This document shows, piece after piece, positions 26,566-53,124 of a stretch of 64,000 nt of DNA (positions within the stretch are counted from its first letter, which is position 1; each line of letters opens with the position of its first letter). Under the pieces are notes generated by a model. That model searched no databases. It was not told the DNA's origin and was given only the letters and a program-made list of their open reading frames with translations. A program made the translations under genes and the position numbers. The DNA is from Kaistella sp. 97-N-M2 (GTDB taxonomy: Bacteria > Bacteroidota > Bacteroidia > Flavobacteriales > Weeksellaceae). The stretch is taken from NCBI RefSeq assembly GCF_021513235.1, contig NZ_CP090976.1, positions 1,860,001-1,924,000 of the forward strand. The letters run 5' to 3'.

Positions 26566-27184
26566 TCTGCGAACATAATACTTATATTTTACCATCGCAA
26601 AAAATGGAGGTATCAACTTCTTGCTGACTGGCGTTATTGTTAAATTAATTTCTGCGTCGGTGGACACTAAAAATAGTCTCCTGTTAAGACAGTTTCCAGG
26701 ATATAAAATTTTTTTTTCTACACGATTAAAATTCGAACAGATTTATTTGATCATCACCTTCTACAAATACCAAATAAATTTTTTTCAATAAATCAAAATG
26801 GATGTCAGTTTTTGTAGTGACCGTCTTAACTAAACAACCTTATAATATATTTTTACCTCCGTAATACAATAAGAAATAATCCGCATATTTAATCTAAAAT
26901 GCAATCGATTACTAAATATTTTCGAAGTATTAATATATCTCAATTGCAATAAAAAATTTATGGTTTTTTGCGCCCGCATTTTGCGACTCCATATTACTTA
27001 GAAATCCTCAAACGTTGGGCACTAAATGAAAGAACCGAGCTCGCAGCTATCCTTTAGGGTGTTGATGTTGGGTTGTCTCCTGACAATTTATCTTTCTCCT
27101 TTCCCAAAATAAGTTTTTGGTTTTACAAAAACACAGGTTTCTCAAAATACTTCAAAATAATTTTCGCCAATTGAAAAAAAATAT
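26566..27184. other. Long intergenic stretch at the left edge of the pectin locus
   Basis: About 620 bases, very A+T rich, with no ORF that looks coding. Short fragments such as GTCTCCTGTTAAGACAGTTTCCAGG (in parts, 26679-26700) and GTTGTCTCCTGACAATTT (27071-27088) look like remnants of something older. I cannot identify them. The kduI promoter and operator begin at its right end. Confidence 0.45.
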
Positions 27185-27206
27185 TACATTTGTGTAATCG
27201 ATTACA
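27185..27206 (+). promoter_or_regulatory. kduI operon promoter with LacI-type operator (site 1)
   Basis: -7 box TACATTTG (27185-27192) is followed without a gap by the perfect palindrome TGTAATCGATTACA (27193-27206). The start codon is at 27222. The operator would cover the transcription start. Four further copies occur at 39008, 46916, 50976 and 51171. The LacI-family protein encoded at 37827-38840 is the candidate repressor. Confidence 0.85.
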
Positions 27207-37826: not shown

Positions 37827-38840
37827 TTATTTTTTGGATGATTTCCGAATGACTAATTTTGGTTCCATAACCACTTTCTTTTCTATTTTCACCATATCAG
37901 GACTGTTCACCTGCTCCAGAAATACCTTCGCCGTCATTTTGCCCATATCTTCCGGGAACTGATCGATGCTGCTGATGGAAAGTTCTTCGTAATCCGTGAA
38001 GGGTTCGTTGGCAAAACCAATCACAGCAACCTCCTGCGGAATCTTGATTTTGCGTGCTTTCAATTCCTGAATGGCACCGAGCGCTACAAAATCACTTGAA
38101 GAAAAAATAGCGTCGGGCTTGTCTGCCAAAGAAAAAAGCTGCTCGATGGCAAGTTTTCCTTCTTCAATTTTGCTGTTAGTTCTCATCACCAAATCTTCTC
38201 TGTAATCGATTCCATGGTCTGCCAAGGCTTGTTGGTAGCCCGCGTGCCTGTCGCGAAATATTTCAATCGCAAAATCGCCCGAGGCTAAATGCGCAATCTT
38301 CCGGCAACCTTGCTCTATGAGGTGCTTTGTCGCCATGTACCCGCCAGAAAAATCGTCAATGGTCACGGAACTCACGCCATCCATGGTTTTTTTTCGGTCA
38401 AAGAAAATTAGAGGAATGTTCTTTTTTAGTATTTTTTCGAACTGCTCGCTCTGTTTGCTGGAAGTTGATAAAAATATGGCATCCACCTGAGAATTAATCA
38501 GTGACTCAATGTTATTAATTTCTTTCGTTTCATCATTATGACTTTGGCAAATAATGATGTGATAGCCACTGGGATTGAGTTCATCTTCTATTCCCCGAAT
38601 AACGGAACTGAAAAAATTGGTGTTAATTCTGGGAACAATGACGCCGATATTGTTGCTTTTACCGCTTTTTAAAGCAAGTGCCAGTTTATTAGGTTCGTAA
38701 TTCATTTTTTTTGCGGTTTCCAGGACGAGCTTTTTGGTGGCTTCGCTGATGTTCTTGTTTCCGTTTAATGCTCTGGAAACCGTTGCCGCAGTCACATTCA
38801 ATACTTTAGCGATATCGTATATCGTTATTTTTTTGACCAT
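37827..38840 (-). CDS. LacI-family transcriptional regulator, candidate repressor of the pectin locus
   Basis: The 337 residues have a LacI helix-turn-helix (ITIYDIAKVLNVTAATVSRALNGNKNISEATKKL, split here into residues 4-22 and 23-37), a hinge (NKLALALKSGKSNNIGVIVP) and a sugar-binding core with ligand-contact regions SSSDFVALGAIQELKARKIKIP and GFANEPFTDYEELSISSIDQ. The inducer is probably a pathway intermediate such as KDG, but nothing here proves it. It is the only regulator in the 30-kb locus. Its likely operators are the palindromes TGTAATCGATTACA found at five locus promoters. It is divergent from the GH28-SusC-SusD operon and convergent with uxaA. Confidence 0.9.
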   Translation of the reverse strand: MVKKITIYDIAKVLNVTAATVSRALNGNKNISEATKKLVLETAKKMNYEPNKLALALKSGKSNNIGVIVPRINTNFFSSVIRGIEDELNPSGYHIIICQSHNDETKEINNIESLINSQVDAIFLSTSSKQSEQFEKILKKNIPLIFFDRKKTMDGVSSVTIDDFSGGYMATKHLIEQGCRKIAHLASGDFAIEIFRDRHAGYQQALADHGIDYREDLVMRTNSKIEEGKLAIEQLFSLADKPDAIFSSSDFVALGAIQELKARKIKIPQEVAVIGFANEPFTDYEELSISSIDQFPEDMGKMTAKVFLEQVNSPDMVKIEKKVVMEPKLVIRKSSKK

Positions 38841-38978: not shown

Positions 38979-39021
38979 TTTGTGTGTTTAACCAATTTGT
39001 TTATATTTGTAATCGATTACA
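38979..39021 (+). promoter_or_regulatory. GH28-SusC-SusD promoter with LacI-type operator (site 2)
   Basis: -33 TTTG (38979-38982), -7 TATATTTG (39002-39009) and the perfect palindrome TGTAATCGATTACA (39008-39021). Here the operator overlaps the last two bases of the -7 box, two bases closer than at the other sites. The start codon is at 39032. Confidence 0.85.
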
Positions 39022-39031
39022 TTATTGCACT

Positions 39032-40507
39032 ATGAGAAACTTATTTTTAAACAACACCTGTCTGGCAGAGCGTTTATCGCGCTTTTTGACTTTAGTTCTG
39101 GGTGTCCTTTTACTTACCGCCTGCAGCCCAAAAAAAGTCACAGCAACTGATTTCGGGGAAAATTTTCCTCTCGAGCAAATGCTGAAAATTGAAAAAAGTA
39201 TTAAAGAGCCTGTTTTCAAAAATAAAGTATATAATATTTTAGATTTTGGTGCTGTGGCTGATGGCAAAACAATGGCTACGGCGAGTATTAAAAAAGCAAT
39301 TGAAACCTGCTCAAAAAATGGAGGCGGAATGGTTTTGGTTCCGGCGGGCAAATTTTTAAGCGGCCCAATTCATCTGGAAAGCAATGTGAATCTTCATGTT
39401 TCCGAAGGTGCGGAAATTTTGTTCAGCACAAACCCGCAGGATTTTTATCCTTTGGTGCATACTTCCTTTGAAGGAATGGAATTAATGAACTACTCACCTT
39501 TAATCTACGGAAAAAATAAAAAGAATATTGCAATCACCGGAAAAGGAACTTTAAACGGACAGGCGAGCAGCGCAAACTGGTGGCCCTGGAAAGGTAAAAC
39601 TTCGGAAGGTTCTATTTACGGCTGGAATCCCGGCGACCCGAGTCAGTTGGACAAAGGAAATTTGCCTGTTTTGATGGATATGGCAGAAAACAATGTGCCG
39701 CTGGAGCAACGCATTTTTGGAAACGGGCATTATTTACGGCCTAATTTCATCGAGCCTTTTGAGTGTGAAAATGTATTAATTAAAGACGTCAATATCATCA
39801 ATGCGCCTTTCTGGATTATTCATCCTTTAAAATCGAAAAACGTAATTGTTGACGGTGTAAATATTAAAAGTCACGGCCCGAATAATGATGGGTGCGACCC
39901 GGAATATTCTCAGAATGTGCTCATCAAAAATACCACCTTCAATACTGGAGATGATTGTATCGCCATAAAAGCGGGTCGGGATGCGGAAGGAAGAAGAGTG
40001 GGGATTATGACGGAAAATGTGATCGTAAGAGACTGCAAGATGATCGACGGGCACGGTGGCGTGGTCATTGGGAGCGAAATGTCTGCAGGAGTGAAAAATG
40101 TTTTTGTGTACAACTGTTTTATGGACAGTCCTTTACTGGATCGCGCCATCCGTTTAAAAACGAATACGAGAAGAGGCGGAACGGTTGACGGATTTTACGT
40201 GAAAAACCTTACGGTGGGCCAGGTGAAAGAAGCTGTTCTGCATATTACCATGAACTATGCAATTTATGGCGATCAAAAAGGAAACAACATCCCAACCATC
40301 AAAAATATCTTTCTGGAAGACGTTAAAGTTAAAAATGGTGGCAAATACGCCATTTTCGCGGAAGGACTGGACCAGTCTAAAATACAGAATATTACTTTTA
40401 AAAATGTGACGATCGATAAGGTTGCAGAAAACTTCAAACTTAAAAATGTGGAGAATCTAAAACTCATCAATACCACCATTAATAACCAAAAAATCGAAAA
40501 GCCATAA
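39032..40507 (+). CDS. Glycoside hydrolase family 28 (polygalacturonase-type), lipoprotein
   Basis: The 491 residues begin with a lipoprotein signal: the hydrophobic stretch around LTLVLGVLLLTAC gives Cys32. They then have the right-handed beta-helix fold. GH28 catalytic motifs are present: PNNDGCDPEYS (NTD equivalent), NTGDDCIAIKAG (DD), GHGGVVIGSE (GHG) and RAIRLKTNTRRGG (RIK). It probably cuts polygalacturonan or oligogalacturonides at the outer membrane. I use the ATG at 39032; the upstream extension to 38984 runs through the promoter and operator. First gene of the operon with SusC and SusD. Confidence 0.92.
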   Translation: MRNLFLNNTCLAERLSRFLTLVLGVLLLTACSPKKVTATDFGENFPLEQMLKIEKSIKEPVFKNKVYNILDFGAVADGKTMATASIKKAIETCSKNGGGMVLVPAGKFLSGPIHLESNVNLHVSEGAEILFSTNPQDFYPLVHTSFEGMELMNYSPLIYGKNKKNIAITGKGTLNGQASSANWWPWKGKTSEGSIYGWNPGDPSQLDKGNLPVLMDMAENNVPLEQRIFGNGHYLRPNFIEPFECENVLIKDVNIINAPFWIIHPLKSKNVIVDGVNIKSHGPNNDGCDPEYSQNVLIKNTTFNTGDDCIAIKAGRDAEGRRVGIMTENVIVRDCKMIDGHGGVVIGSEMSAGVKNVFVYNCFMDSPLLDRAIRLKTNTRRGGTVDGFYVKNLTVGQVKEAVLHITMNYAIYGDQKGNNIPTIKNIFLEDVKVKNGGKYAIFAEGLDQSKIQNITFKNVTIDKVAENFKLKNVENLKLINTTINNQKIEKP

Positions 40508-40524
40508 CCAAATTATTGTAAATT

Positions 40525-43500
40525 ATGAAAAACAAAAGTTTACTAACGCCCACATTAAAGCTTACTGTTGCAGTATGTGCTTTACTGTCTGCACCTGGTT
40601 TCTATGCCCAACAAAAAGCTAACGATACAGTAACACGTCAGAAAAATATCGAAGAAGTAGTGATGATCGGCTACGGAACGGCCAAAAAAGGAGATCTTAC
40701 CGGTTCGGTGTCGAGTTTGAAAGGCTCGGATCTTGTACAGGTACCCGTTTCTAACGTGGCAGAAGCATTAACCGGAAAAATTGCCGGTGTAAAAATTAAT
40801 ACCACCGAAGGATCACCCGATTCGGAAGTCAGTATCAGAATTCGGGGTGGCGGTTCCATCACCCAAGACAGTTCTCCTTTGATTATCGTTGATGGATTTC
40901 CGGTCAACAGCATGTCCGACGTTTCACCTTCGGATATTGAAAACTTAACCATTTTGAAAGATGCTTCTTCCACGGCAATATATGGTTCCAGAGGTGCGTA
41001 TGGCGTAATATTAATCACCACAAAAAGCGGCAGATCCGGCAAATTGCAGGTGAGTTTTAATACATACAGCGGATTTAAACAGAAAGCAAATTCACTGGAT
41101 GTACTTTCGCCGCTGGATTACTTAAAATGGCAGTACGAATATGCCACCCTCGACGGTTCTTTGGAAAAATATACCAAGTATTTCGGAGATTATAACCAGA
41201 TGGGAAATTTTGCAAATGCAACCCCAATCGATTGGCAAAAAGAAATTTTCGGACGAACGGGAACGGTTTTAAGCAACGATATCTCCATCCGGGGCGGGAG
41301 CGAAAAAACAACCTACAATATTAATTTGGCGCGTTACGACGAAAAAGCAATTATGTTGGGTTCTGATTTGAAGCGGGAAAATCTGTCTGTTAATTTGAAA
41401 AGCAAACCCACGGATAAGTTGAACCTTTCGGTCACTTTCAGACATTCCAACACTGTTATTAACGGCGGCGGAACCAATGAGCAGAACGAAGTTTCGTCCG
41501 CCGATTCCCGACTGAAAAATGCCGTCCTTTACACGCCTTTCTATGTTCCTGGATTAACGGTAGAAGATGCGGATGCTACTGAAGACGATACTTTAATCAA
41601 TCCGTATACTTCTGTTACAGATAATGACCGTACTCAGGAGAGAAGAAATTATAATATTCAGGGAAGCGTAGGATACAAGATCATTAAAAACTTGCAGTTC
41701 AAATCTGATATCGGCGTCGATTTTTACCGGTACAAAGATGCGCGTTTCTATGGCAAAGGAACCTATTATGTGAAGAATGTGCCGTTGGCAGATTTTCAGG
41801 GAAAGCCTGCTGTAGTGACTTTTAACAGGGAAGACCGCCGGTTTAGAAATTCAAACACTTTAAATTACGATTTCAAGGCATTAATGGGCGAGGATCACAG
41901 CCTGAAATTATTGTTGGGCCAGGAAATGATTATCAGCCAGCGAAATACCGTAACAAATGTTGTTCACGGATTTCCGTCGGATTTTACTTTCGAAGATGCC
42001 CTAAATATTTCTACGGTGGGCAAGCCACAATCTGTAGGGAATGTTACCGATCCGGATGATAAATTATTGTCATTTTTTGGGCGTGTAAACTATGATTTTA
42101 AAAACCGGTATTTATTTACTGCGACCATGAGAGCAGATGGATCCAGTAAATTTTCCAGCGGCAACAAGTGGGGATATTTTCCTTCTGCGGCCGTTGCATG
42201 GAAGGCCAATGAAGAAAACTTCTTAAAAGACGTGTCTTGGATAGATCTCTTAAAAGTTAGGTTGAGCTATGGTCAAGCGGGAAACAATAATATTCCTGCC
42301 GGACAACAGATTCAAACCTTTACCAATTTACCCAGTAGCTGGATTAATAATGTGAGCAACTACTGGGCTACGGAAAAGATTTTATTTAATTCAAACTTGA
42401 AGTGGGAAACTACAGTTACCCAAAATGTTGGTTTGGACTTCGACTTTTTTAAAGGCAGAGTAAGCGGTTCGGTAGAACTTTACAAAAACCTGACGAAAGA
42501 TTTACTAATTCTCTTCCCCCTCCCAGGTTCAGGTTATGATGGCCAGTACCAAAATATTGGAGAAAACCAAAACAAAGGACTCGAAGCTTCTGTAAGTGTG
42601 GATGTCTTACGAAAAGAAGAAGCGAGTGTTAATTTCTCTTTCAATATTGGGTTTAATAAAAACCGTATTAATGATCTTGGGCCCTTGGTGTCGCAGTATT
42701 TCTCAAGTACCTGGAATCCTGCTATTGCTGCAGAGTTTCAGTTAAAAGTTGGCGAACCCATCGGGCAAATCTTTGGTTATTTAAACGATGGCCGCTATGA
42801 AGTATCTGATTTTGATTACAATGAAACCTCCGGCGTTTACACGCTGAAAGAAGGAGTAACCAACGCTTCTACCATTGTAGGCACAGTTAAACCGGGTACC
42901 ATGAAACTGAAAGATATAACAGGAGACGGAAAAGTTGATGCCAATGACCGAACGATTATCGGCGACACCAGCCCGAAATATACAGGAGGTTTTAATTTGA
43001 ACACGACGTTTAAAAACTTCGATTTCTCCGCTGCTTTCAACTTTACTGTTGGAAACGACATTTATAATGCAAATAAAATTGAAAATACCACCGGAACGCC
43101 TTCCGCTCCAAACGGACAGTACCGTAATTTAACAACGGAACAAATGGATGGTGTACGATGGACGAATATCGATCCAAATACCGGTGCAACCGTTACAGAT
43201 CCTACAGCCCTGGCTGCTTTAAATGCGAACACCACCATGTGGTCTCCATTTATGTCGCGTTTTGTTTTAAGTGATTATGCCATCGAAGACGGCTCTTTTT
43301 TAAGACTTAATAATGTAACTTTAGGATACAGTTTGCCAAGATCTTTCACGTCCCAAATTGGACTTTCTAAAATTAGAGTGTATGCCACAGCGAATAATGT
43401 TTTTGTTTTAACCAAATATTCGGGCTTGGATCCGGAGGTTTCTACAAGAAGAAAAACCGCTTTAACACCGGGCGTCGATTATTCGCCTTATCCTAAAAGC

Positions 43501-43536
43501 AGAATGTATGTTTTGGGATTAAATGTTAATTTCTAA
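40525..43536 (+). CDS. SusC-like TonB-dependent outer-membrane transporter
   Basis: Imports oligosaccharides bound by the SusD-like partner. The 1003 residues have a signal peptide (ending around SAPGFYAQQ), a TonB-box/plug start IEEVVMIGYGTAKKGDLTGSVSSLKGSDL and the plug segment SIRIRGGGSITQDSSPLIIVDGFPVNS, then a 22-strand-type barrel ending YPKSRMYVLGLNVNF. The usual N-terminal carboxypeptidase-like domain is absent, and there is no anti-sigma-interacting extension, which fits regulation by LacI rather than an ECF sigma factor. It lies 17 bases after GH28 and 19 before SusD. Confidence 0.96.
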   Translation: MKNKSLLTPTLKLTVAVCALLSAPGFYAQQKANDTVTRQKNIEEVVMIGYGTAKKGDLTGSVSSLKGSDLVQVPVSNVAEALTGKIAGVKINTTEGSPDSEVSIRIRGGGSITQDSSPLIIVDGFPVNSMSDVSPSDIENLTILKDASSTAIYGSRGAYGVILITTKSGRSGKLQVSFNTYSGFKQKANSLDVLSPLDYLKWQYEYATLDGSLEKYTKYFGDYNQMGNFANATPIDWQKEIFGRTGTVLSNDISIRGGSEKTTYNINLARYDEKAIMLGSDLKRENLSVNLKSKPTDKLNLSVTFRHSNTVINGGGTNEQNEVSSADSRLKNAVLYTPFYVPGLTVEDADATEDDTLINPYTSVTDNDRTQERRNYNIQGSVGYKIIKNLQFKSDIGVDFYRYKDARFYGKGTYYVKNVPLADFQGKPAVVTFNREDRRFRNSNTLNYDFKALMGEDHSLKLLLGQEMIISQRNTVTNVVHGFPSDFTFEDALNISTVGKPQSVGNVTDPDDKLLSFFGRVNYDFKNRYLFTATMRADGSSKFSSGNKWGYFPSAAVAWKANEENFLKDVSWIDLLKVRLSYGQAGNNNIPAGQQIQTFTNLPSSWINNVSNYWATEKILFNSNLKWETTVTQNVGLDFDFFKGRVSGSVELYKNLTKDLLILFPLPGSGYDGQYQNIGENQNKGLEASVSVDVLRKEEASVNFSFNIGFNKNRINDLGPLVSQYFSSTWNPAIAAEFQLKVGEPIGQIFGYLNDGRYEVSDFDYNETSGVYTLKEGVTNASTIVGTVKPGTMKLKDITGDGKVDANDRTIIGDTSPKYTGGFNLNTTFKNFDFSAAFNFTVGNDIYNANKIENTTGTPSAPNGQYRNLTTEQMDGVRWTNIDPNTGATVTDPTALAALNANTTMWSPFMSRFVLSDYAIEDGSFLRLNNVTLGYSLPRSFTSQIGLSKIRVYATANNVFVLTKYSGLDPEVSTRRKTALTPGVDYSPYPKSRMYVLGLNVNF

Positions 43537-43555
43537 CTACTAAATTTAATTTAAA

Positions 43556-45364
43556 ATGAAAAATTATTTAATAATATCAGGACTCGCACTTGTTTCTATT
43601 TTTGCATCTTGTTCAGATTTTGCTGATGATTTCCTGACAACGGATTCTGCCTCTTCTTTAGACGAAGCCAAAATCTTCTCTACGGCAAGTTTAGCTGAAG
43701 GTGCAGTAAATGGAATTAAAATTCCCTTCGGCGATACCGAGTCTTATCGCGGTCGGTTTTTGCCCTGGTACGGGATGAATACCGATACCGATTGGTACAA
43801 CGCCTCGGAATCCACCTCCAGTGATAAAGCAGATTTGGCCACATACGACGCCAAACCCAATAACAGCGAAATGAATAAGGTAACCAATGTCTGGGCAACA
43901 GGAATGTACGCAGGTATTGAGAGAGCAAACATTTGTATTCGTGGTTTAAGGGCATATGGAAATCCCACGCCAGGATCCGATCTTGGCTATTTATTGGGCG
44001 AAGCTTTAACCTTGCGTGCGGTTTATTACGCAGATTTGCTGAAAGCCTGGGGCGATGTGCCCGCCAGGTTTGAGCCGATTACACCGGAAACTGTATATCT
44101 CGCAAAATCGAGAGACCTTATTTACAAACAGATAATTGCAAATCTTGGGGAAGCGGCAACTTTGGTTCCGTGGCCCAACGGAAATGCTGCCACCACCTCC
44201 GTCGAAAGAGTGAATAAAGCATTTGTAAAAGGTCTCCGCGCAAGGTTGGCCCTGGCAGCATCTGGCTACCAGCAATATCCGGACGGTGTGAGACGAAGTA
44301 ACGATCCGGAATTAGCCGTTTCGAAAATGTATCCGCTTGCACTCGCCGAAACCCGCGAAATTATCGCAAGCGGGACAGCAAAACTTGAAACATCGTTCGA
44401 AGGCCTATGGAAAAAATACAATCAGGAAAATACTTCCGCGGGCGGCGAATCGCTTTGGGAAATACCGTTTGGCGCGGGTAGAGGCAGAATGCTCTTTACT
44501 TTTGCGGTTACACATACTGGTGTGGACCAGTATCAGGGGAATGGTGCAAACAGAGGTGGCCAGGGCGGCCCTTTGCCCACCGTTTTTTATGATTATGACA
44601 CGAAGGATTTGCGAAGAGATGTTACGTGTGTGCCTTACAAATGGGGTACGCCCAACTCCACAGTATTGACGAATAATTTTCCGACCGCAAAACAGGAATT
44701 AAGCGTACTGAACCGCTGGTTTTTCGGAAAATACAGATATGAATGGATGAGCAGAAGAGTTACTTCTACCAATGACGATGGCGTAAATAAAATGTATATG
44801 CGCTACGGAGAAATCTTATTAATGGCGGCTGAAACGGCAAACGAGCTGGAAGGTCCTGCTGCAGCTGCAGTTTATTTGAAAATGCTTCGTAAAAGAGCCT
44901 TTTCTGCTGCAGATCAGGCGCAAAAAGTAGAGGCATACGTGAATGCTTTAGGCAGTAAAACGGCTATGTTTAATGCTATTGTTGAAGAACAGAAGTTTGA
45001 ATTTACCGGTGAAATGGAAAGAAAACAGGCGCTCATCCGCTGGAATCTCCTCGGATCTAAAATGGCACAGGCAAAATTAGATATGACCGACTTGAAAAAC
45101 CGCACGGGAGCTTACGCCGACGTTCCGTCAACGCTTTATTACAAGTATGCCGCTGATAACGAATCTCTTGTTATCTATGGTTTAAACAGAGGCGAATTTA
45201 CAAATCCGGGAGCAGGCTACACTTCGTTTAACTGGACCGCTTTGTCAGATTCTAAAATTAATTCCCTTTACAGAAATAATCCGGATGCGAAACAGTTTTG
45301 GCCCATCTGGCAGGTCTTTTTAGACTCCAGTAATGGTCTGTTGGTCAATGATTATGGCTACTAG
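43556..45364 (+). CDS. SusD/RagB-family glycan-binding lipoprotein
   Basis: Outer-membrane lipoprotein that captures glycan for the SusC-like channel. The 602 residues start with a lipoprotein signal (LVSIFASC, Cys19), then show TPR-like helices with the SusD landmarks ERANICIRGLRAYG, LLGEALTLRAVYYADLLKAWGDVPARFEP and FVKGLRARLALAASGYQQ. The C-terminal part has MYMRYGEILLMAAETANEL and RWNLLGSKM. Probably specific for pectin fragments. Last gene of its operon; a strong terminator follows at 45387-45438. Confidence 0.96.
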   Translation: MKNYLIISGLALVSIFASCSDFADDFLTTDSASSLDEAKIFSTASLAEGAVNGIKIPFGDTESYRGRFLPWYGMNTDTDWYNASESTSSDKADLATYDAKPNNSEMNKVTNVWATGMYAGIERANICIRGLRAYGNPTPGSDLGYLLGEALTLRAVYYADLLKAWGDVPARFEPITPETVYLAKSRDLIYKQIIANLGEAATLVPWPNGNAATTSVERVNKAFVKGLRARLALAASGYQQYPDGVRRSNDPELAVSKMYPLALAETREIIASGTAKLETSFEGLWKKYNQENTSAGGESLWEIPFGAGRGRMLFTFAVTHTGVDQYQGNGANRGGQGGPLPTVFYDYDTKDLRRDVTCVPYKWGTPNSTVLTNNFPTAKQELSVLNRWFFGKYRYEWMSRRVTSTNDDGVNKMYMRYGEILLMAAETANELEGPAAAAVYLKMLRKRAFSAADQAQKVEAYVNALGSKTAMFNAIVEEQKFEFTGEMERKQALIRWNLLGSKMAQAKLDMTDLKNRTGAYADVPSTLYYKYAADNESLVIYGLNRGEFTNPGAGYTSFNWTALSDSKINSLYRNNPDAKQFWPIWQVFLDSSNGLLVNDYGY

Positions 45365-45386
45365 TAATTCCTAAAATAATCCTTAC

Positions 45387-45438
45387 AACCTGCCTTCTTT
45401 TTTAAAATAATTTTTAAAAGTCGGGCAGGTTTTTTTTC
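45387..45438 (+). terminator. Terminator after the SusD gene
   Basis: AACCTGCC (45387-45394) and GGCAGGTT (45424-45431) form an 8-bp stem with a 29-base loop, followed by a run of T to 45438. Confidence 0.7.
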
Positions 45439-45459
45439 TGTTTAATTTCTCGGTAAACG

Positions 45460-45478
45460 CTCATGAACATCTCATGAA
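45460..45478 (+). promoter_or_regulatory. Direct repeat upstream of the PL1 pectate lyase gene
   Basis: CTCATGAA occurs at 45460-45467 and again at 45471-45478, exactly one helical turn (11 bases) apart. It lies between the SusD terminator and the pectate lyase start at 45528. The LacI-type operator is absent here. It could be a site for another regulator. Confidence 0.35.
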
Positions 45479-45527
45479 TTGAAGTGTTGTCATTCTGATA
45501 AAATTCACTCTTTAAAAAATTAATGCA

Positions 45528-46850
45528 ATGAAAAAATACATTTTCTGTCTGCTATTGAACCTTATTTTCACTTACAATTACACCCAGAACTATTACCTGC
45601 CAACGCCACAGGGCTACGGTGCAAATACGACGGGCGGCGGAAATGCAAGCGCTGTTACTGTTACCACGTTTGCGGAATTAAAATCAAATTTAACTGCGGC
45701 CGGTGCAAAAGTAATCCTGGTTTCCGGTACGATCACAATTCCATCGGGACAGGCGATCAGCGCGGTGGTGACGAACAAATCTCTTATTGGTTTGCCCGGT
45801 GCGACGCTTATTAACGACAATCAAACTTCCGGTGCCGGGATTCTCTATTTGAAACCGGGATCTAATAATGTGATCATCCGTAATTTGATATTCAAAGGTC
45901 CCGGCGCTTATGATATTGATGGAAAAGATAATTTAACGGCCGATGGCGCGCTTAATCTTTGGGTTGACCACTGCGAATTTCAGGATGGGCAGGATGGAAA
46001 TTTCGATATTAAAGGAAAATCGGATAACGTGTCCGTCTCCTGGTGCAAATTCACGTATCTAAAGCCACCTGTCGCAGGCGGGTCGGGAGGGTCCAATGAC
46101 CATCGGTTTTCTAATCTGGTCGGCAGCAGCGCCACCGATTTTCCGGAAGATGGAAAGTACAGCATCACGTTTCAAAATAATTATTGGGGCGAAGGCGTGA
46201 AAGGCAGAATGCCCAGAGCCAGAAATGCAGAACTTCATATAATAAGTTGTTTTTATAATACATCCGTTGCCGGAGCCACAGGAATTGGTTTGGGTGGCGG
46301 CGCCAATAATTCGACGTGCTACGTTCAAAATACGAACTTTAAAAAAGTGGCTACGGTTTTCAGCCCGGCTCCCGGGGACGGTGGTACAGTTGCCATCAAT
46401 TATGTAAATTCCCTTAGAAGTCCATCTAATCTTGGGACCGTTTTGGCTCCAACTTATGTTACAACACCCATTCCGGTGGAAGACGTGGAGGGGATTCTGA
46501 CAGATGCTACGTGTGGCGCCGGCGCTACTTTACAGGTTTCGGCTTCGGGACTTATTACACCGAGTATTTGTACCGGTTTGGGAGTTAAGAATGCTTTCGG
46601 TACTGCGGGTCGGAAATTAGATTGTACACCGACCGCAAACCACGAATTACAAATTAAGATTCCGGCCGCGAACTTCGGAAATACCACATTTCAGGTTTTT
46701 TCTCCCACCGGACAACTGCTTCTTACCAAAAACAAAATTCTTAAGTCCACTTTGTCGACACTCGATGTAAACCAATTACAGTCAGGAATTTATGTGCTTT
46801 CTGGCCGGAATGAGCAGGATTCGCTGCAGTGTAAGTTTTACCGGAACTGA
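45528..46850 (+). CDS. Polysaccharide lyase family 1 pectate lyase with a type IX sorting tail
   Basis: Secreted pectate lyase that cleaves homogalacturonan by beta-elimination. The 440 residues have a signal peptide, then the PL1 beta-helix: VTVTTFAELKSNLTAAGAKVI, LWVDHCEFQDGQDGNFDIKG (vWiDH and calcium Asp), SNDHRFSNLVG and NNYWGEGVKGRMPRARNAELHI (RxPxxR, catalytic Arg region, about residues 220-236). The last 75 residues (NHELQIKIPAANFGN ... FQVFSPTGQLLL ... GIYVLSG) look like a type A sorting domain. It has no LacI operator, unlike its neighbours; a direct repeat sits upstream. Confidence 0.92.
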   Translation: MKKYIFCLLLNLIFTYNYTQNYYLPTPQGYGANTTGGGNASAVTVTTFAELKSNLTAAGAKVILVSGTITIPSGQAISAVVTNKSLIGLPGATLINDNQTSGAGILYLKPGSNNVIIRNLIFKGPGAYDIDGKDNLTADGALNLWVDHCEFQDGQDGNFDIKGKSDNVSVSWCKFTYLKPPVAGGSGGSNDHRFSNLVGSSATDFPEDGKYSITFQNNYWGEGVKGRMPRARNAELHIISCFYNTSVAGATGIGLGGGANNSTCYVQNTNFKKVATVFSPAPGDGGTVAINYVNSLRSPSNLGTVLAPTYVTTPIPVEDVEGILTDATCGAGATLQVSASGLITPSICTGLGVKNAFGTAGRKLDCTPTANHELQIKIPAANFGNTTFQVFSPTGQLLLTKNKILKSTLSTLDVNQLQSGIYVLSGRNEQDSLQCKFYRN

Positions 46851-46884: not shown

Positions 46885-46929
46885 TTGCACACTTTCTAAA
46901 AATATTTTACATTTGTGTAATCGATTACG
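46885..46929 (+). promoter_or_regulatory. Promoter with LacI-type operator (site 3)
   Basis: -33 TTG (46885-46887), -7 TACATTTG (46908-46915) and the near-perfect palindrome TGTAATCGATTACG (46916-46929; 13 of 14). The start codon of the small secreted protein is at 46974. Confidence 0.8.
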
Positions 46930-46973
46930 ATCGATATAATTAAATAAAAATCAACAACTTAAAATTCATTGTC

Positions 46974-47747
46974 ATGAAAAAAAAATTACTTTCTTTGGTA
47001 GGAGCGCTTCTTATTTCAGCCTTCTCTACAGCACAAACTACAACCTGGAATTTTAGCGATGCTATCTGGCCGGTAAGCTCCGGTTATGCCGCACCAACAG
47101 TTGTCAATAACTTAGGGTTCATCACAGGAACAACTACAACTATGGGCGCGATCGAAGCAAACTCTGCCACGATAGACGGAATTTCTTTTACGCAGCGCTT
47201 AAAATTTAACGGTGGAAGTTATGCCTCAGGTACCACTAATTTTGCCATGCCTACACAGCGAGCCATGTATTTTGATGTGACCGGAAATTCAAGCATCAAA
47301 ATTTGGTACAAAAACGGTGGTGGTGGTAACCGTACACTCTACGTCACGAACGGTACGTCCGTCATCAGCTCATTCCTTTACACAGATTCCACTGTAGGTC
47401 AGGTTGCTTCTGTAAACTACACCGGCGGTGCAGGGAGAATTTACATTGCTGCAGATCAGGCGATGAATGTTTATCAGATTACTGCTACAAATGTTGGAAC
47501 TACCGCAACATTAGGCGCTTCCAACGTTACTAAAAATACCACGCAGGTATACGCGGTTGGAAATCAGGTAAATATTGCTAAAACAGCAGGTAATACTCAA
47601 GTTGAGGTTTACACCATGAATGGTGCTTTGGTAAAAACGCTGAATGCAAAATCTGACACAAGCTTTCAATTATCTAACAAAGGAGTTTACATTGTAAATG
47701 TGAAATCTGACAACGGTTCAGTTTCTACGAAAGTGATGATCAAATAA
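46974..47747 (+). CDS. Small secreted protein with a pectate-lyase-associated (carbohydrate-binding-like) domain and sorting tail
   Basis: The 257 residues have a signal peptide (MKKKLLSLVGALLISAFSTA), then one domain of about 160 residues starting TTTWNFSDAIWPVSSGY with IDGISFTQRLKFNGG, RAMYFDVTGNSSIKIWYK and RTLYVTNG. It resembles accessory domains attached to pectate lyases in this group. It ends in a sorting tail (QVEVYTMNGALVKTLNAKS, GVYIVNVKS, STKVMIK). No catalytic motif is seen, so it may bind pectin without cutting it. It has its own promoter and operator and its own terminator: a single-gene unit in the regulon. Confidence 0.65.
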   Translation: MKKKLLSLVGALLISAFSTAQTTTWNFSDAIWPVSSGYAAPTVVNNLGFITGTTTTMGAIEANSATIDGISFTQRLKFNGGSYASGTTNFAMPTQRAMYFDVTGNSSIKIWYKNGGGGNRTLYVTNGTSVISSFLYTDSTVGQVASVNYTGGAGRIYIAADQAMNVYQITATNVGTTATLGASNVTKNTTQVYAVGNQVNIAKTAGNTQVEVYTMNGALVKTLNAKSDTSFQLSNKGVYIVNVKSDNGSVSTKVMIK

Positions 47748-47775
47748 TAATTTTCATATCCAATTTTTCAGGGAG

Positions 47776-47802
47776 CGGCAATTTATTATTGCCGTTTTTT
47801 TT
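47776..47802 (+). terminator. Terminator of the small secreted protein gene
   Basis: CGGCAAT (47776-47782) and ATTGCCG (47788-47794) form a 7-bp stem with a 5-base loop, followed by eight T. Confidence 0.85.
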
Positions 47803-48383
47803 GTGGGCGACTGTCTCAACTGAAAATTGTACTCAGGAGAAGATTACGATTTCTCATAAGACCATATTTCCGTTGGCAGCTAAGTGATGTTATCAGCTTT
47901 TGTCAATTTGCAGGAAAGCGGCAAATTTAATTAAATTGAGTTTCACGCAGTTCATTCGTTTGATTATTTTCCTATTCGAACCGCCGTTCAGGCACTTATC
48001 TATAAGATTACGTCATCCGCGTTCAGAAAAGATGACTTTCCTAAAGAATTTTTAATAGAGGGGTGAACAGTATGAAAAAGGTAAAATGTTCTCCTAATCC
48101 TTCATGCTCAAAGAAGACGAATTTGGCTTAGATAAAATGTATTTGAAAGGGTAAAGCGTACGAGAAACATTAAAAATTTGCTTACCCTAAATTCATTCGA
48201 TGCAACAATTTATAGGTTTAGAACGTGATTATTAAAACACTTCGACGTATAAGGATGGTCTTACCGTGCACCTTCGCTTCTTAGAAACGTTCGCAGTTTG
48301 TCGGCACTGATTTCCAGACTTCGCTAAATCAATCGCTGTCTATTAATTGAAGTTTTTTCACCGTAGATTATACGGATCGATCA
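47803..48383. other. Gene-poor stretch with decayed coding fragments
   Basis: About 580 bases without an intact ORF. Two short protein-like pieces remain in different frames on the plus strand: FRKDDFPKEFLIEG (about 48018-48063) and LKEDEFGLDKMYLKG (about 48110-48154), each ending in a stop. They look like the remains of one broken gene, identity unknown. No terminal inverted repeats or transposase motif could be recognised. Confidence 0.4.
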
Positions 48384-48415
48384 CAAAAAAAAGGATAGCC
48401 ATTACGCTATCCTTT
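48384..48415 (-). terminator. Terminator of the large pectate lyase gene
   Basis: AAGGATAGC (48391-48399) and GCTATCCTT (48406-48414) form a 9-bp stem with a 6-base loop. On the minus strand it is followed by a T run (to 48384). Confidence 0.85.
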
Positions 48416-48438
48416 CCTGTTAAATTAAAGTCCGGTTT

Positions 48439-50940
48439 CTATTTTTTAAGAACCTTATGATATTGAATTCCCTGATTCGTTTTTACATGAACAAAGTACA
48501 AGCCTGTTTTCAAGGCGCTCAAATTGATGTTTTGGGCTTTTCCCGCCACCGTTTTTACGAGTTGTCCCGCTGCATTGTAAACCGAAATGTTTTCAATATT
48601 CACACTGGATGGAAGAACAAAATTCAAAACCTCGCGCACGGGATTCGGATATAACTGCAATTTTTCATTGTTTTGAGTGGCGTTTTCGGTCGCCAACGTT
48701 CCGGAATATTCCGTTTTAATGTAGTAAAGGTTCGCCGTGTCACCTTTTGAAATAACGTGCGCTCCTGCTGCAACCGCAGGAATTTTTACCACACCGTCAA
48801 CTGCGGTATAACTTACGCCGTCCAGCTTTATTTTTTTCGCAAAACCCGGATCGAAAACCAAAGTCAAAGTCGAAACTGCGGTCGTATTGTATGAAATTTG
48901 GGTGGGCGTTTCTATTTTTAATCTTGCCGTTAAAATTAGGCCATCATACGTAGTAGATCCCGGCGTCGAATTAATGTTGGCTGCCGTGAAGGTATAGAAG
49001 GTGCTGTTTAAACCAGTGGCAGTGAAATTATGAATTAAATCTCCCGATGAAGGTGGATTGTCATCAACCGAAATATTTCCTGTTCCTTCCACCGGTGTTC
49101 CTGCCGAACCGGACGTGGTAACTGTAAAGCTGACATTTGCTGTTGGTGTTCCGGAAACCGTGATCGTTTTCGCAGTGATATCCTTTACAAAAGTAATTCC
49201 ATTCGCAGGCAAACCGCTCACCGTGGCATCATCTGCAGTTCCGCCCCAGGTATAAACCATATTGGCGATTGCACTTCCGCTGGCTACCGTTTGATCGTTA
49301 TTATCGGGTACCAGTAGCGTTTGAGTACTTACCACAACTGGAGTTTCGCCCTGCACATAAACCAATCCCGACTGGTAGTTAACAAGTAACGCTTTTAACG
49401 CCGAATTAATGGCGTAAGAAGTATCATCTACCGCGTTGTTAAAGGCAAAGGAAATATCGCCTCCGGAAACACGGCCCGCATACTGCATTACCTGATCTCT
49501 GGCTGCCTCCGGCTCCTGAACAACAAGAGTGTTGATGTAAAGCGCCGGATTCGTATCAAAATTATTATAAGTATTTCCGCCTTTTTTAGATTTGATGCTG
49601 GCTGGGATTACTTCGCCTCTGGTGCTCGTAACTACCGCATCAAATTCGATAGGATTGTTCACCGCATCGTATGCCGCAAAACGTTGCTGCCCGCTCATCA
49701 TATTATTGAAAGCTTTGATGGTTCCGCCTGCTTCACCGGAAAAGGTTCCTTCGGCGCCGTTAAAAGTATCCGTTCCCTGCTGCGAGGTCAACATAGGATA
49801 TTTCGCATTTCTAAAATAATTTCCTTCCATAAATACAGAAGAACCTAAGGTTGACCCCGCACCGTATTTTGAATTTCCATCGTAATAATTGTTGTAAACG
49901 TGAGCAGAATAATATCTTACCCGTGGATGGCGGGAATCGGAATGATCATACCAATTATGGTGATAGGTGATATAAAGGTCTGCCATGGTACCTTCACTTA
50001 AACCTAAAAGATTGCTTTTACCACTGTCCCAAAAATGGTTATAAGAAAAAGTAACGTCTGTAGATTTTTTACAGTCCAGCGCGCCATCGCCTTTCACCTG
50101 ATCAGCGTCGCCGCCGGCAGCGCCGTAAAACATATCGCAGTTATGAACCCAAATGTGATCATTTCCCTGCTGTAATCCTACATTGTCACCTTCGTTGGCA
50201 TCAGTTAACATGAAACCGATATTTCTAATCTCAATATTAGAAGCATTCTTCACGCGAATTCCCCAACCGTTTGCCACAGCATCGGATCCAACTCCTTCGA
50301 TGGTGATGGAGCCATTTGCATTGTTTTTATTTTCAACTACGATGTCTCCTGCCAACATATTGCTGAGGTCCGTAATATTTCCGATCATTCGCACGACCAA
50401 AGGTCTGGAATCGCCTCCTTTTTTAAAGCCGTCCAGAATATTCTGTAAACCGATGCATGGATTTGAAGTGGCACCCGTGACGTTTAAAGAAACCGTGTTT
50501 TTTGTGTTTTGGGTAATGTAAATAACCAGAGCGTTATTTTTTAGAGTTCCGTCGAAATTATACCCACCCGGCAATCTTCCGCCACGGTAGGCAAAACCGG
50601 TTCGGTCATGTGCAACCACGTTGATAGGCGAAGATGCTGTTCTTGCTCCCTCTACGCCGTCGGTTACTGCTGCAACTTTAAGGGTATAAACACCCGCAGC
50701 CAAGCCCAGAACATCTGCACGAAAATAAGAACCATAGCTTCGGATCAACTGCGTATCAATCTTTTTGTCGGTGAAACCACCGCCGGAATAATAAACGTTA
50801 TAACTGTCGGCATTTTCCACCGGCTCCCATTTGATATAGGCCGATTCAAGCCAGCCCGTTTCTTGTGTGATGGTTACAGACTGCGCCTGTAAGGTAAATG
50901 ACATTATTAGGAATGCCAAAAAAAATAGTAATTTTTTCAT
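48439..50940 (-). CDS. Large modular pectate lyase with type IX sorting domain
   Basis: The 833 residues are modular. A signal peptide (MKKLLFFLAFLIMSFTLQAQ) is followed by a fibronectin-III-like domain (about residues 21-110) and a PL1-type pectate lyase domain (about residues 113-500) with IWVHNCDMFYGAAGGDADQ, KSTDVTFSYNHFWDSGKSN and YHHNWYDHSDSRHPRVR (catalytic RxPxxR). Then come an Ig-like segment (about residues 550-632), a further accessory domain starting LIHNFTATGLNSTFYTF, and a sorting domain (NEKLQLYPNPVREVLNF ... GLYFVHVKTNQGIQYHKVLKK). Secretion by the type IX system to the cell surface or medium is inferred. Monocistronic, with operator site 4 upstream. Confidence 0.92.
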   Translation of the reverse strand: MKKLLFFLAFLIMSFTLQAQSVTITQETGWLESAYIKWEPVENADSYNVYYSGGGFTDKKIDTQLIRSYGSYFRADVLGLAAGVYTLKVAAVTDGVEGARTASSPINVVAHDRTGFAYRGGRLPGGYNFDGTLKNNALVIYITQNTKNTVSLNVTGATSNPCIGLQNILDGFKKGGDSRPLVVRMIGNITDLSNMLAGDIVVENKNNANGSITIEGVGSDAVANGWGIRVKNASNIEIRNIGFMLTDANEGDNVGLQQGNDHIWVHNCDMFYGAAGGDADQVKGDGALDCKKSTDVTFSYNHFWDSGKSNLLGLSEGTMADLYITYHHNWYDHSDSRHPRVRYYSAHVYNNYYDGNSKYGAGSTLGSSVFMEGNYFRNAKYPMLTSQQGTDTFNGAEGTFSGEAGGTIKAFNNMMSGQQRFAAYDAVNNPIEFDAVVTSTRGEVIPASIKSKKGGNTYNNFDTNPALYINTLVVQEPEAARDQVMQYAGRVSGGDISFAFNNAVDDTSYAINSALKALLVNYQSGLVYVQGETPVVVSTQTLLVPDNNDQTVASGSAIANMVYTWGGTADDATVSGLPANGITFVKDITAKTITVSGTPTANVSFTVTTSGSAGTPVEGTGNISVDDNPPSSGDLIHNFTATGLNSTFYTFTAANINSTPGSTTYDGLILTARLKIETPTQISYNTTAVSTLTLVFDPGFAKKIKLDGVSYTAVDGVVKIPAVAAGAHVISKGDTANLYYIKTEYSGTLATENATQNNEKLQLYPNPVREVLNFVLPSSVNIENISVYNAAGQLVKTVAGKAQNINLSALKTGLYFVHVKTNQGIQYHKVLKK

Positions 50941-51138: not shown

Positions 51139-51184
51139 TTTGCCCTCGTCGCCAAAATTTTTTAGATTTGTGTAATCGATTGCT
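51139..51184 (+). promoter_or_regulatory. Promoter of the esterase-GH28 operon with degenerate LacI-type operator (site 5)
   Basis: -33 TTTG (51139-51142), -7 TAGATTTG (51163-51170), then TGTAATCGATTGCT (51171-51184; 12 of 14, with the right half-site weakened). The ATG is at 51204. The divergent pectate lyase promoter lies about 170 bases away. Confidence 0.7.
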
Positions 51185-52155: not shown

Positions 52156-53124
52156 ATGAAAATTTATTCAGCAGCATTTATTGCTATAATATTTACCCAG
52201 ATTACCAGTTGTACCGCTCAAAAATCGGTTTCTTCAGAGGTACAAAAAACGCACGCCGAAATTTCCATCAAAGAAGGTGGAAAATGGAACGGTAGAAAAT
52301 ATGAGGGCGGAACCTGGAAAAGTGTTCAGTCGCACACTTTAAATCCGTTGCACACCGATCATTCCTTTGATATCCGGTATGAAGGGCCGGGTTGGGAAAG
52401 TAATAAAATTGCGTATCGCTTGTATTTAGACTGGAGAAATGCAATCGATATTTTCGGGAAAACTTCTGAAAAAATAGTTCTTCCACAGGTTGGATTAGAC
52501 GGTTTTGAATCTTATCATCTAAAGCAGGAGTGGGGTTCCGATATTTTAAAAGTGGGAAAAGGTCAAGGTTTAGGTTCCATCGCCAGAATTGTGGATGGTA
52601 AAATGTATCATTTCGAAACGGTGGAAAAAACAACTGCAGCGGTAGAAAATACTTCCAAAAGTTCCTCAGTAAACATTCATTACAAAGGTTGGAAAACGCT
52701 TGATGATAAAATTGATCTCAACGCAAAACTTTCCATTTTTCCGGATGAAAGATTTACAGAATATACCTTCACACCATCCGCAGAAATTGAAGGAATTGCA
52801 ACCGGAATTGTGAAACTTAAAAATTTGGACGTGATCCAGAAAAACAGTGCAAACGGAAAATGGGGATATATCGCAACTTACGGTAATCAATCGATGTTTG
52901 ATGACGGTTTAGGAATGGCGCTTTTCTATGAAACTTCTACCGTTTCGGAAGTGAAAGATGGTCCTTTCGATCATTTGGTCGTTTTCAAACCTACTACAAA
53001 AGCGGTTACTTATTATTTTTTAGCAGCTTGGGAAAAGGAGCAAAACGCAATAAAAACGAAAGCGGAATTCCAGAATTACATCGACACAAAATTGGCGGAA
53101 TTGAATTCTAAAAGTAAATTGTAA
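52156..53124 (+). CDS. DUF4861-family lipoprotein
   Basis: The 322 residues begin with a lipoprotein signal (AFIAIIFTQITSC, Cys19) and contain the family's core: SFDIRYEGPGWESNKIAYRLYLDWRNAID (in two conserved pieces, about residues 73-101), QVGLDGFESYHLKQEWGSDILKVG and GFGLGSIARI-like GQGLGSIARIVDGKMYHF. DUF4861 proteins accompany GH105 in pectin and rhamnogalacturonan loci of Bacteroidota, but their activity is not known to me. It lies 49 bases after the esterase and 19 before GH105. Confidence 0.8.
   Translation: MKIYSAAFIAIIFTQITSCTAQKSVSSEVQKTHAEISIKEGGKWNGRKYEGGTWKSVQSHTLNPLHTDHSFDIRYEGPGWESNKIAYRLYLDWRNAIDIFGKTSEKIVLPQVGLDGFESYHLKQEWGSDILKVGKGQGLGSIARIVDGKMYHFETVEKTTAAVENTSKSSSVNIHYKGWKTLDDKIDLNAKLSIFPDERFTEYTFTPSAEIEGIATGIVKLKNLDVIQKNSANGKWGYIATYGNQSMFDDGLGMALFYETSTVSEVKDGPFDHLVVFKPTTKAVTYYFLAAWEKEQNAIKTKAEFQNYIDTKLAELNSKSKL

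Follow-up and report, generated by a model that had tools for sequence, protein, structure and literature searches.

A predicted stand-alone pectin-binding protein with a type IX sorting tail in a flavobacterial pectin locus

SusE, SusF and SGBP-B are outer-membrane proteins, typically lipoproteins. Other modules of relevance to pectin are borne by enzymes, including the pectin-binding CBM77 (Pfam PF18283; PDB 5fu5) and the beta-sandwich domains of two lyases, recorded as ‘pectate disaccharide-lyase’ (8x8h) and ‘pectate lyase family 9’ (8wc1). BT0996-C, a Lys-rich beta-sandwich carbohydrate-binding module (CBM) of an RG-II enzyme, has been proposed to use charge to keep its enzyme on the polygalacturonate backbone (PMC9843283). 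Induction of the pectin locus has been documented by proteomics in Flavobacterium, and the part of that report considered here names no protein of the kind described below (PMC8056085).

Here we describe P0001, a 257-residue exported protein encoded in a window of 64,000 nucleotides (the whole stretch of DNA analysed) from Kaistella sp. 97-N-M2, contig NZ_CP090976.1, a genome whose nearest named relatives are Kaistella palustris and Epilithonimonas mollis. P0001 is probably a stand-alone pectin-binding protein, exported through the type IX secretion system (T9SS) and predicted to hold substrate near the pectin enzymes and SusCD. It would work like SusE/SusF and SGBP-B proteins such as CHU_1279 (PMC12016534), as a predicted non-catalytic surface glycan binder in a SusCD locus, but on inspection its signal region proved to contain no lipobox Cys, and it ends in a T9SS sorting tail instead; a SusE/SusF-type lipoprotein identity was rejected on these grounds.

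The PL9 domains resemble P0001 in their beta-sandwich, three Arg residues and pectin context, but are parts of lyases, whereas P0001 is a separate protein with a T9SS tail, and identity is 20–23%. CBM77 has the same general fold and is present on the adjoining PL1 enzyme, but is shorter (~110 residues, against ~155 for the P0001 domain) and finds no Pfam match in P0001. The likeness to BT0996-C lies in the beta-sandwich CBM; P0001 differs in having Arg and Trp rather than Lys and in being unattached to an enzyme. Its domain has a pI of 7.9 (4.8–8.8 across the family) and is not strongly basic, unlike BT0996-C, which we counted against the pectin-binder reading. The most economical reading is a non-catalytic, T9SS-exported pectin binder, induced alongside the pectin enzymes, that works like an SGBP and is built like an enzyme CBM cut loose with its own sorting tail.

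The gene, its export signals and its regulation

Features of the gene and its surroundings are collected in Table 1. A preliminary sequence-only reading of this DNA had described a protein made of a signal peptide, one domain and a sorting tail, and this architecture was upheld by the open reading frame, by tail matches to TIGR04183 (38 bits, cut-off 23) and PF18962 (28.5, cut-off 27) and by a beta-sandwich of ~155 residues, joined to the tail by a short linker. The N-terminus, MKKKLLSLVGALLISAFSTAQ, reads as a textbook Sec signal, judged from sequence alone, and the T9SS translocon gene sprA is present in the genome (SprA, 2043 bits). A Sec signal assigned by eye, a tail scoring above cut-off and a translocon in the same genome together mark P0001 as a predicted T9SS type-A cargo. 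It would be exported by Sec and then by T9SS, with the sorting tail removed on attachment to, or release at, the outer surface.

Table 1. Features of P0001 and its locus, in window coordinates
Feature	Position	Strand	Basis or remark
LacI-family regulator, presumed operator binder	37827..38840	-	orthologues 52-87% identity in relatives’ pectin loci
GH28, SusC, SusD, PL1 pectate lyase (pectin-locus operon upstream of P0001)	38984..46850	+	
Bacteroidetes-type promoter TTG-N20-TACATTTG	46885..46915	+	pattern scan; consensus TTG-N17..23-TANNTTTG
LacI-type operator GTAATCGATTAC	46917..46928	.	perfect palindrome, directly 3′ of the -7 element
P0001 gene	46974-47747	+	257 aa, exported protein
Signal peptide, residues 1-21	46974..47036	+	by eye, no lipobox; low confidence and unstructured in the model
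CBM-like beta-sandwich domain, residues 22-176	47037..47501	+	conserved W25, D68, R75, P93, R96, W111, R120
T9SS type-A C-terminal sorting domain, residues 197-257	47562..47744	+	TIGR04183, PF18962; structural match to T9SS CTDs 5ag8, 8gl6, 8gl8
Intrinsic terminator, hairpin then U8	~47770-47803	+	RNA fold -15.9 kcal/mol, z -2.5
PL1 pectate lyase + CBM77 + T9SS tail	48439..50940	-	CBM77 E 2.5e-27; constant partner of the P0001 family

The middle region of P0001 matched no family in Pfam or NCBIfam, and a Pfam scan of 19 diverse homologues produced only chance-level matches. A match to NCBIfam NF052644 (T9SS DNase; 23 bits against a cut-off of 260, span 3–255) was rejected; the signal and tail common to both probably account for most of it. 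We also discarded a dermatan-sulfate epimerase from the single-sequence PDB search (E 0.27, chance level), as well as candidate paralogues in the same genome: their weak matches all took in the tail, and searching with the profile of the domain brought up no second copy.

Perfect copies of GTAATCGATTAC occur exactly three times in the 2.87-Mb genome (one contig), at window positions 27194, 39009 and 46917, all in the pectin locus. The arrangement of promoter and operator seen at P0001 recurs at 39009, ahead of the GH28 gene, and at 51172, ahead of an esterase operon, where the operator has one mismatch. The sequence-only reading had called the P0001 operator private: an operator does sit at the promoter of this gene, but it is one site among those of a locus-wide LacI-type regulon. 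The protein that binds it is presumably the LacI-family regulator of Table 1.

Genome-wide there are nine copies with one mismatch, four of them in the pectin locus, one of these four inside the lacI coding sequence. Those at 26901, 50977 and 51172 precede other genes of the locus and, with the three perfect copies, outline a multi-operon LacI-type regulon. The esterase/GH105 operon also contains a DUF4861 protein (window 52156–53124, E 5.6e-63) that is kept in the pectin loci of many relatives.

Among 48 homologue genes, 90% had an operator with at most two mismatches between −150 and +50. The figure was 1.25% when upstream sequences were shuffled, and 10% for the remaining ORFs of these loci, a set that includes other pectin operon heads. 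The operator core AATCGATT was invariant across 44 aligned sites, which is partly due to the selection of matches with at most three mismatches. A palindromic operator at the promoter, kept with the orthologues, points to membership of P0001 in a LacI-type pectin regulon, in which a LacI-family repressor at GTAATCGATTAC would keep the gene off and pectin-derived sugars would relieve repression.

The strong terminator claimed for the gene was confirmed by its hairpin, U8 tract and folding energy, though a simple terminator scan did not list it. The claim that the gene forms its own transcription unit held in part: promoter, operator and terminator are all in place, but the 123 bp that separate the PL1 gene from P0001 yielded no terminator, so that read-through from the SusCD-PL1 operon is possible and exclusivity is half shown. 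P0001 can thus also be the last gene of a GH28-SusC-SusD-PL1 read-through transcript. Between P0001 and the PL1-CBM77 gene, ~600 bp of the window (47850–48430) contain no ORF of at least 120 aa and possibly represent decayed coding sequence.

Fold and relatives of the domain

An AlphaFold2 model of P0001 (m75b21c493ca9), built from a four-sequence alignment and with a mean pLDDT of 74, was all-beta. Its best structural matches, over 142–143 residues, were 8x8h (Z 18.5, with 142 of 144 residues aligned at 1.9 Å) and, after it, 8wc1 (Z 17.0), with all remaining chains in the comparison at Z ≤10.9. Both entries are titled ‘a carbohydrate binding domain of a putative pectate lyase’, and it is from these titles that their carbohydrate-binding role is taken here. 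Independently of the model, a search of 177,635 PDB sequences with the P0001 family HMM placed the same two entries at the top (8wc1, E 9.6e-4; 8x8h, E 0.019), neither of which was retrieved by a single-sequence search with P0001. The HMM alignment to the two entries matched R75, R96 and R120 and, in 8wc1, also the C-terminal NxY motif (N165-x-Y167).

On the model, the P0001 domain is predicted to have the same fold, over its full length, as these PL9-associated domains, and the profile search suggests that homology is detectable at the sequence level; the ~155-residue beta-sandwich would be a diverged relative of PL9 pectate lyase carbohydrate-binding domains. The combination of profile and structure-prediction searches envisaged in the sequence-only reading delivered a match by both routes. 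A named family with a known role, which that reading had given as grounds for its refutation, was found nowhere in the sequence libraries and nearly so by structure, in the shape of the PL9-associated CBMs.

Comparison of the model with CBM77 (5fu5) gave Z 10.3 over 116 of 117 residues; CBM4-2, CBM35, CBM22 and CBM6 scored similarly, which marks a general beta-sandwich CBM class. Membership of CBM77 itself, brought to mind by an eye-catching DG-x-TxRLK resemblance to the neighbouring enzyme, was rejected after PF18283 gave no match to P0001 up to E 1 and profile comparison with local CBM77 domains returned a probability of 0.2%. In a scan of the genome, CBM77 scored above cut-off only in the PL1 enzyme adjoining P0001.

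Large CE8 pectinesterases of flavobacterial pectin loci (~1072 aa; L048:12333-15551 and equivalents) begin with an unnamed stretch of ~190 aa, the ‘VWDFGA’ module, Pfam covering the CE8 part only. The P0001 family profile recognised this module (hmmsearch E 1.6e-6, hhalign E 3.2e-7), making a distant common ancestry detectable. Both are secreted and encoded in the same loci, but the CE8 module is fused to an esterase, whereas that of P0001 stands alone. The window’s own pectin locus contains no large CE8 of this kind.

Predicted function and genomic context

Positions conserved across 71 domains include Trp25, Phe27, Asp68, Arg75, Gly80, Pro93, Arg96, Trp111 and Arg120. At least 97% of these domains retain W25, and the same holds for R96, W111 and R120 (97–99% for these three), D68 is the only well-conserved acidic residue (93%) and no His is well conserved, in keeping with the earlier statement that the protein has no catalytic motif. 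Searches of Pfam and NCBIfam matched P0001 to no catalytic family of polysaccharide lyases or carbohydrate esterases, and no conserved catalytic set was found. Conserved Trp and Arg residues in the absence of such a set argue for binding rather than catalysis, and the guanidinium and aromatic groups fit recognition of an acidic sugar polymer.

P0001 is predicted most likely to help retain pectin at the cell surface, not to cleave it, and appears to be a variant of the CBM type found in pectate lyases that stands alone and is exported by T9SS, its binding and surface location both being predictions. It would bind homogalacturonan or its oligomers, probably via R75, R96, W111 and R120, and would keep this substrate close to the PL1, PL1-CBM77 and CE8 enzymes secreted with it and to the SusCD importer. 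As a prediction, the surface pectin-binding protein put forward in the sequence-only reading is well supported by the PL9 CBM fold match, the pectin-locus context, the conserved operator and the T9SS tail.

Among 320 genomes from the bacterial family to which this genome belongs, 27 were found to have the P0001 family, with 46 domain matches, often as a tandem pair; this recurrence, together with an operator kept with the gene, indicates that P0001 is more than a chance occurrence. Within one genus of a sister family, 25 of the 299 genomes had a homologue. Pectin genes surrounded the homologues in 34 of 41 neighbourhoods sampled across the two families (by Pfam names, SusC/SusD, PL1, PL1-CBM77, large CE8, esterases, GH88/105-type and GH28), while the seven neighbourhoods with no pectin genes were counted against the pectin-binder reading. 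Two neighbourhoods (L042 and L047) contain only a PL1-CBM77 gene and a P0001 homologue, back to back.

The PL1-CBM77-T9SS lyase accompanies P0001 in all 27 positive genomes, compared with 50 of 320 genomes overall, an association inflated by genome kinship that yet spans seven genera. Homologues are also placed directly after PL1 or the large CE8. Such companionship would suit a partner module that binds and so tethers the PL1 and CE8 enzymes or the SusCD complex, while itself binding little glycan. We consider this unlikely, since the structures closest to P0001 are domains described as carbohydrate-binding and its Trp/Arg set looks more like a glycan site than a protein interface. No P0001 homologue was found in 23 of the 50 genomes with PL1-CBM77, so P0001 is not essential for the role of that enzyme.

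P0001 might instead be a surface adhesin or matrix protein for acidic glycans generally, merely co-regulated with pectin use. Homologues outside pectin loci (L099, L102, L103, L105 and L109), a homologue that forms the N-terminal domain of a very large Ig-repeat/laminin-G surface protein (L090) and the divergence of tandem copies, which fall in separate clades of the domain tree, all lend something to this view. Retention of a pectin-type operator in pectin-less neighbourhoods (L053, L090, L105 and L109) and the predominance of pectin loci around the homologues speak against it, and we judge it improbable. Least credible is a new small pectin-active lyase or esterase with no recognised catalytic motif, also raised in the sequence-only reading: P0001 does belong to a pectin regulon, is secreted like the surrounding enzymes and has a middle region outside known Pfam and NCBIfam families, but its all-beta CBM-type fold lies close to non-catalytic PL9 lyase domains, it shows no conserved acid/base/nucleophile set and, with a sole well-conserved acidic position and no His, a catalytic set is hard to place, which makes this reading very improbable.

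As a pectin-binding protein, P0001 may have wider meaning. The sorting tail was the only part of such proteins named by the family libraries searched; as a pectin-binding module free of any enzyme, the domain can now be given a name and put to the test. In two bacterial families, the P0001 family appears to be a part of pectin use that is locked into the regulon and, if binding is confirmed, would represent a second way, beside lipoprotein SGBPs, for Bacteroidota to hold substrate at the cell surface. The location of tandem copies in separate clades suggests more than one duplication. More speculatively, and with considerable doubt, we propose that stand-alone pectin-binding modules delivered by T9SS make up an undescribed family, which acts as an SGBP of flavobacterial pectin loci, including those of gliding species, has arisen from an enzyme-borne CBM that became independent and was tandem-duplicated more than once, and maybe couples attachment or the capture of pectin to movement over plant surfaces.

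In two neighbourhoods (L067 and L068), a P0001 homologue coexists with an fn3/DUF5123 protein encoded after SusD; there, it may be the latter that serves as the classical SGBP, with the homologue as an addition. The small clade comprising L099, L102 and L103 lacks both the pectin operator and pectin neighbours, and in L102 and L103 the homologue lies near 2-oxoglutarate dehydrogenase E1. The large surface-type protein of L090 (L090:2083-8790, minus strand; 2235 aa) combines its N-terminal CBM-like domain of the P0001 type with five HYDIN-like Ig domains, laminin-G and a T9SS tail, and the near-operator GCAATCGATTGC lies upstream of its gene.
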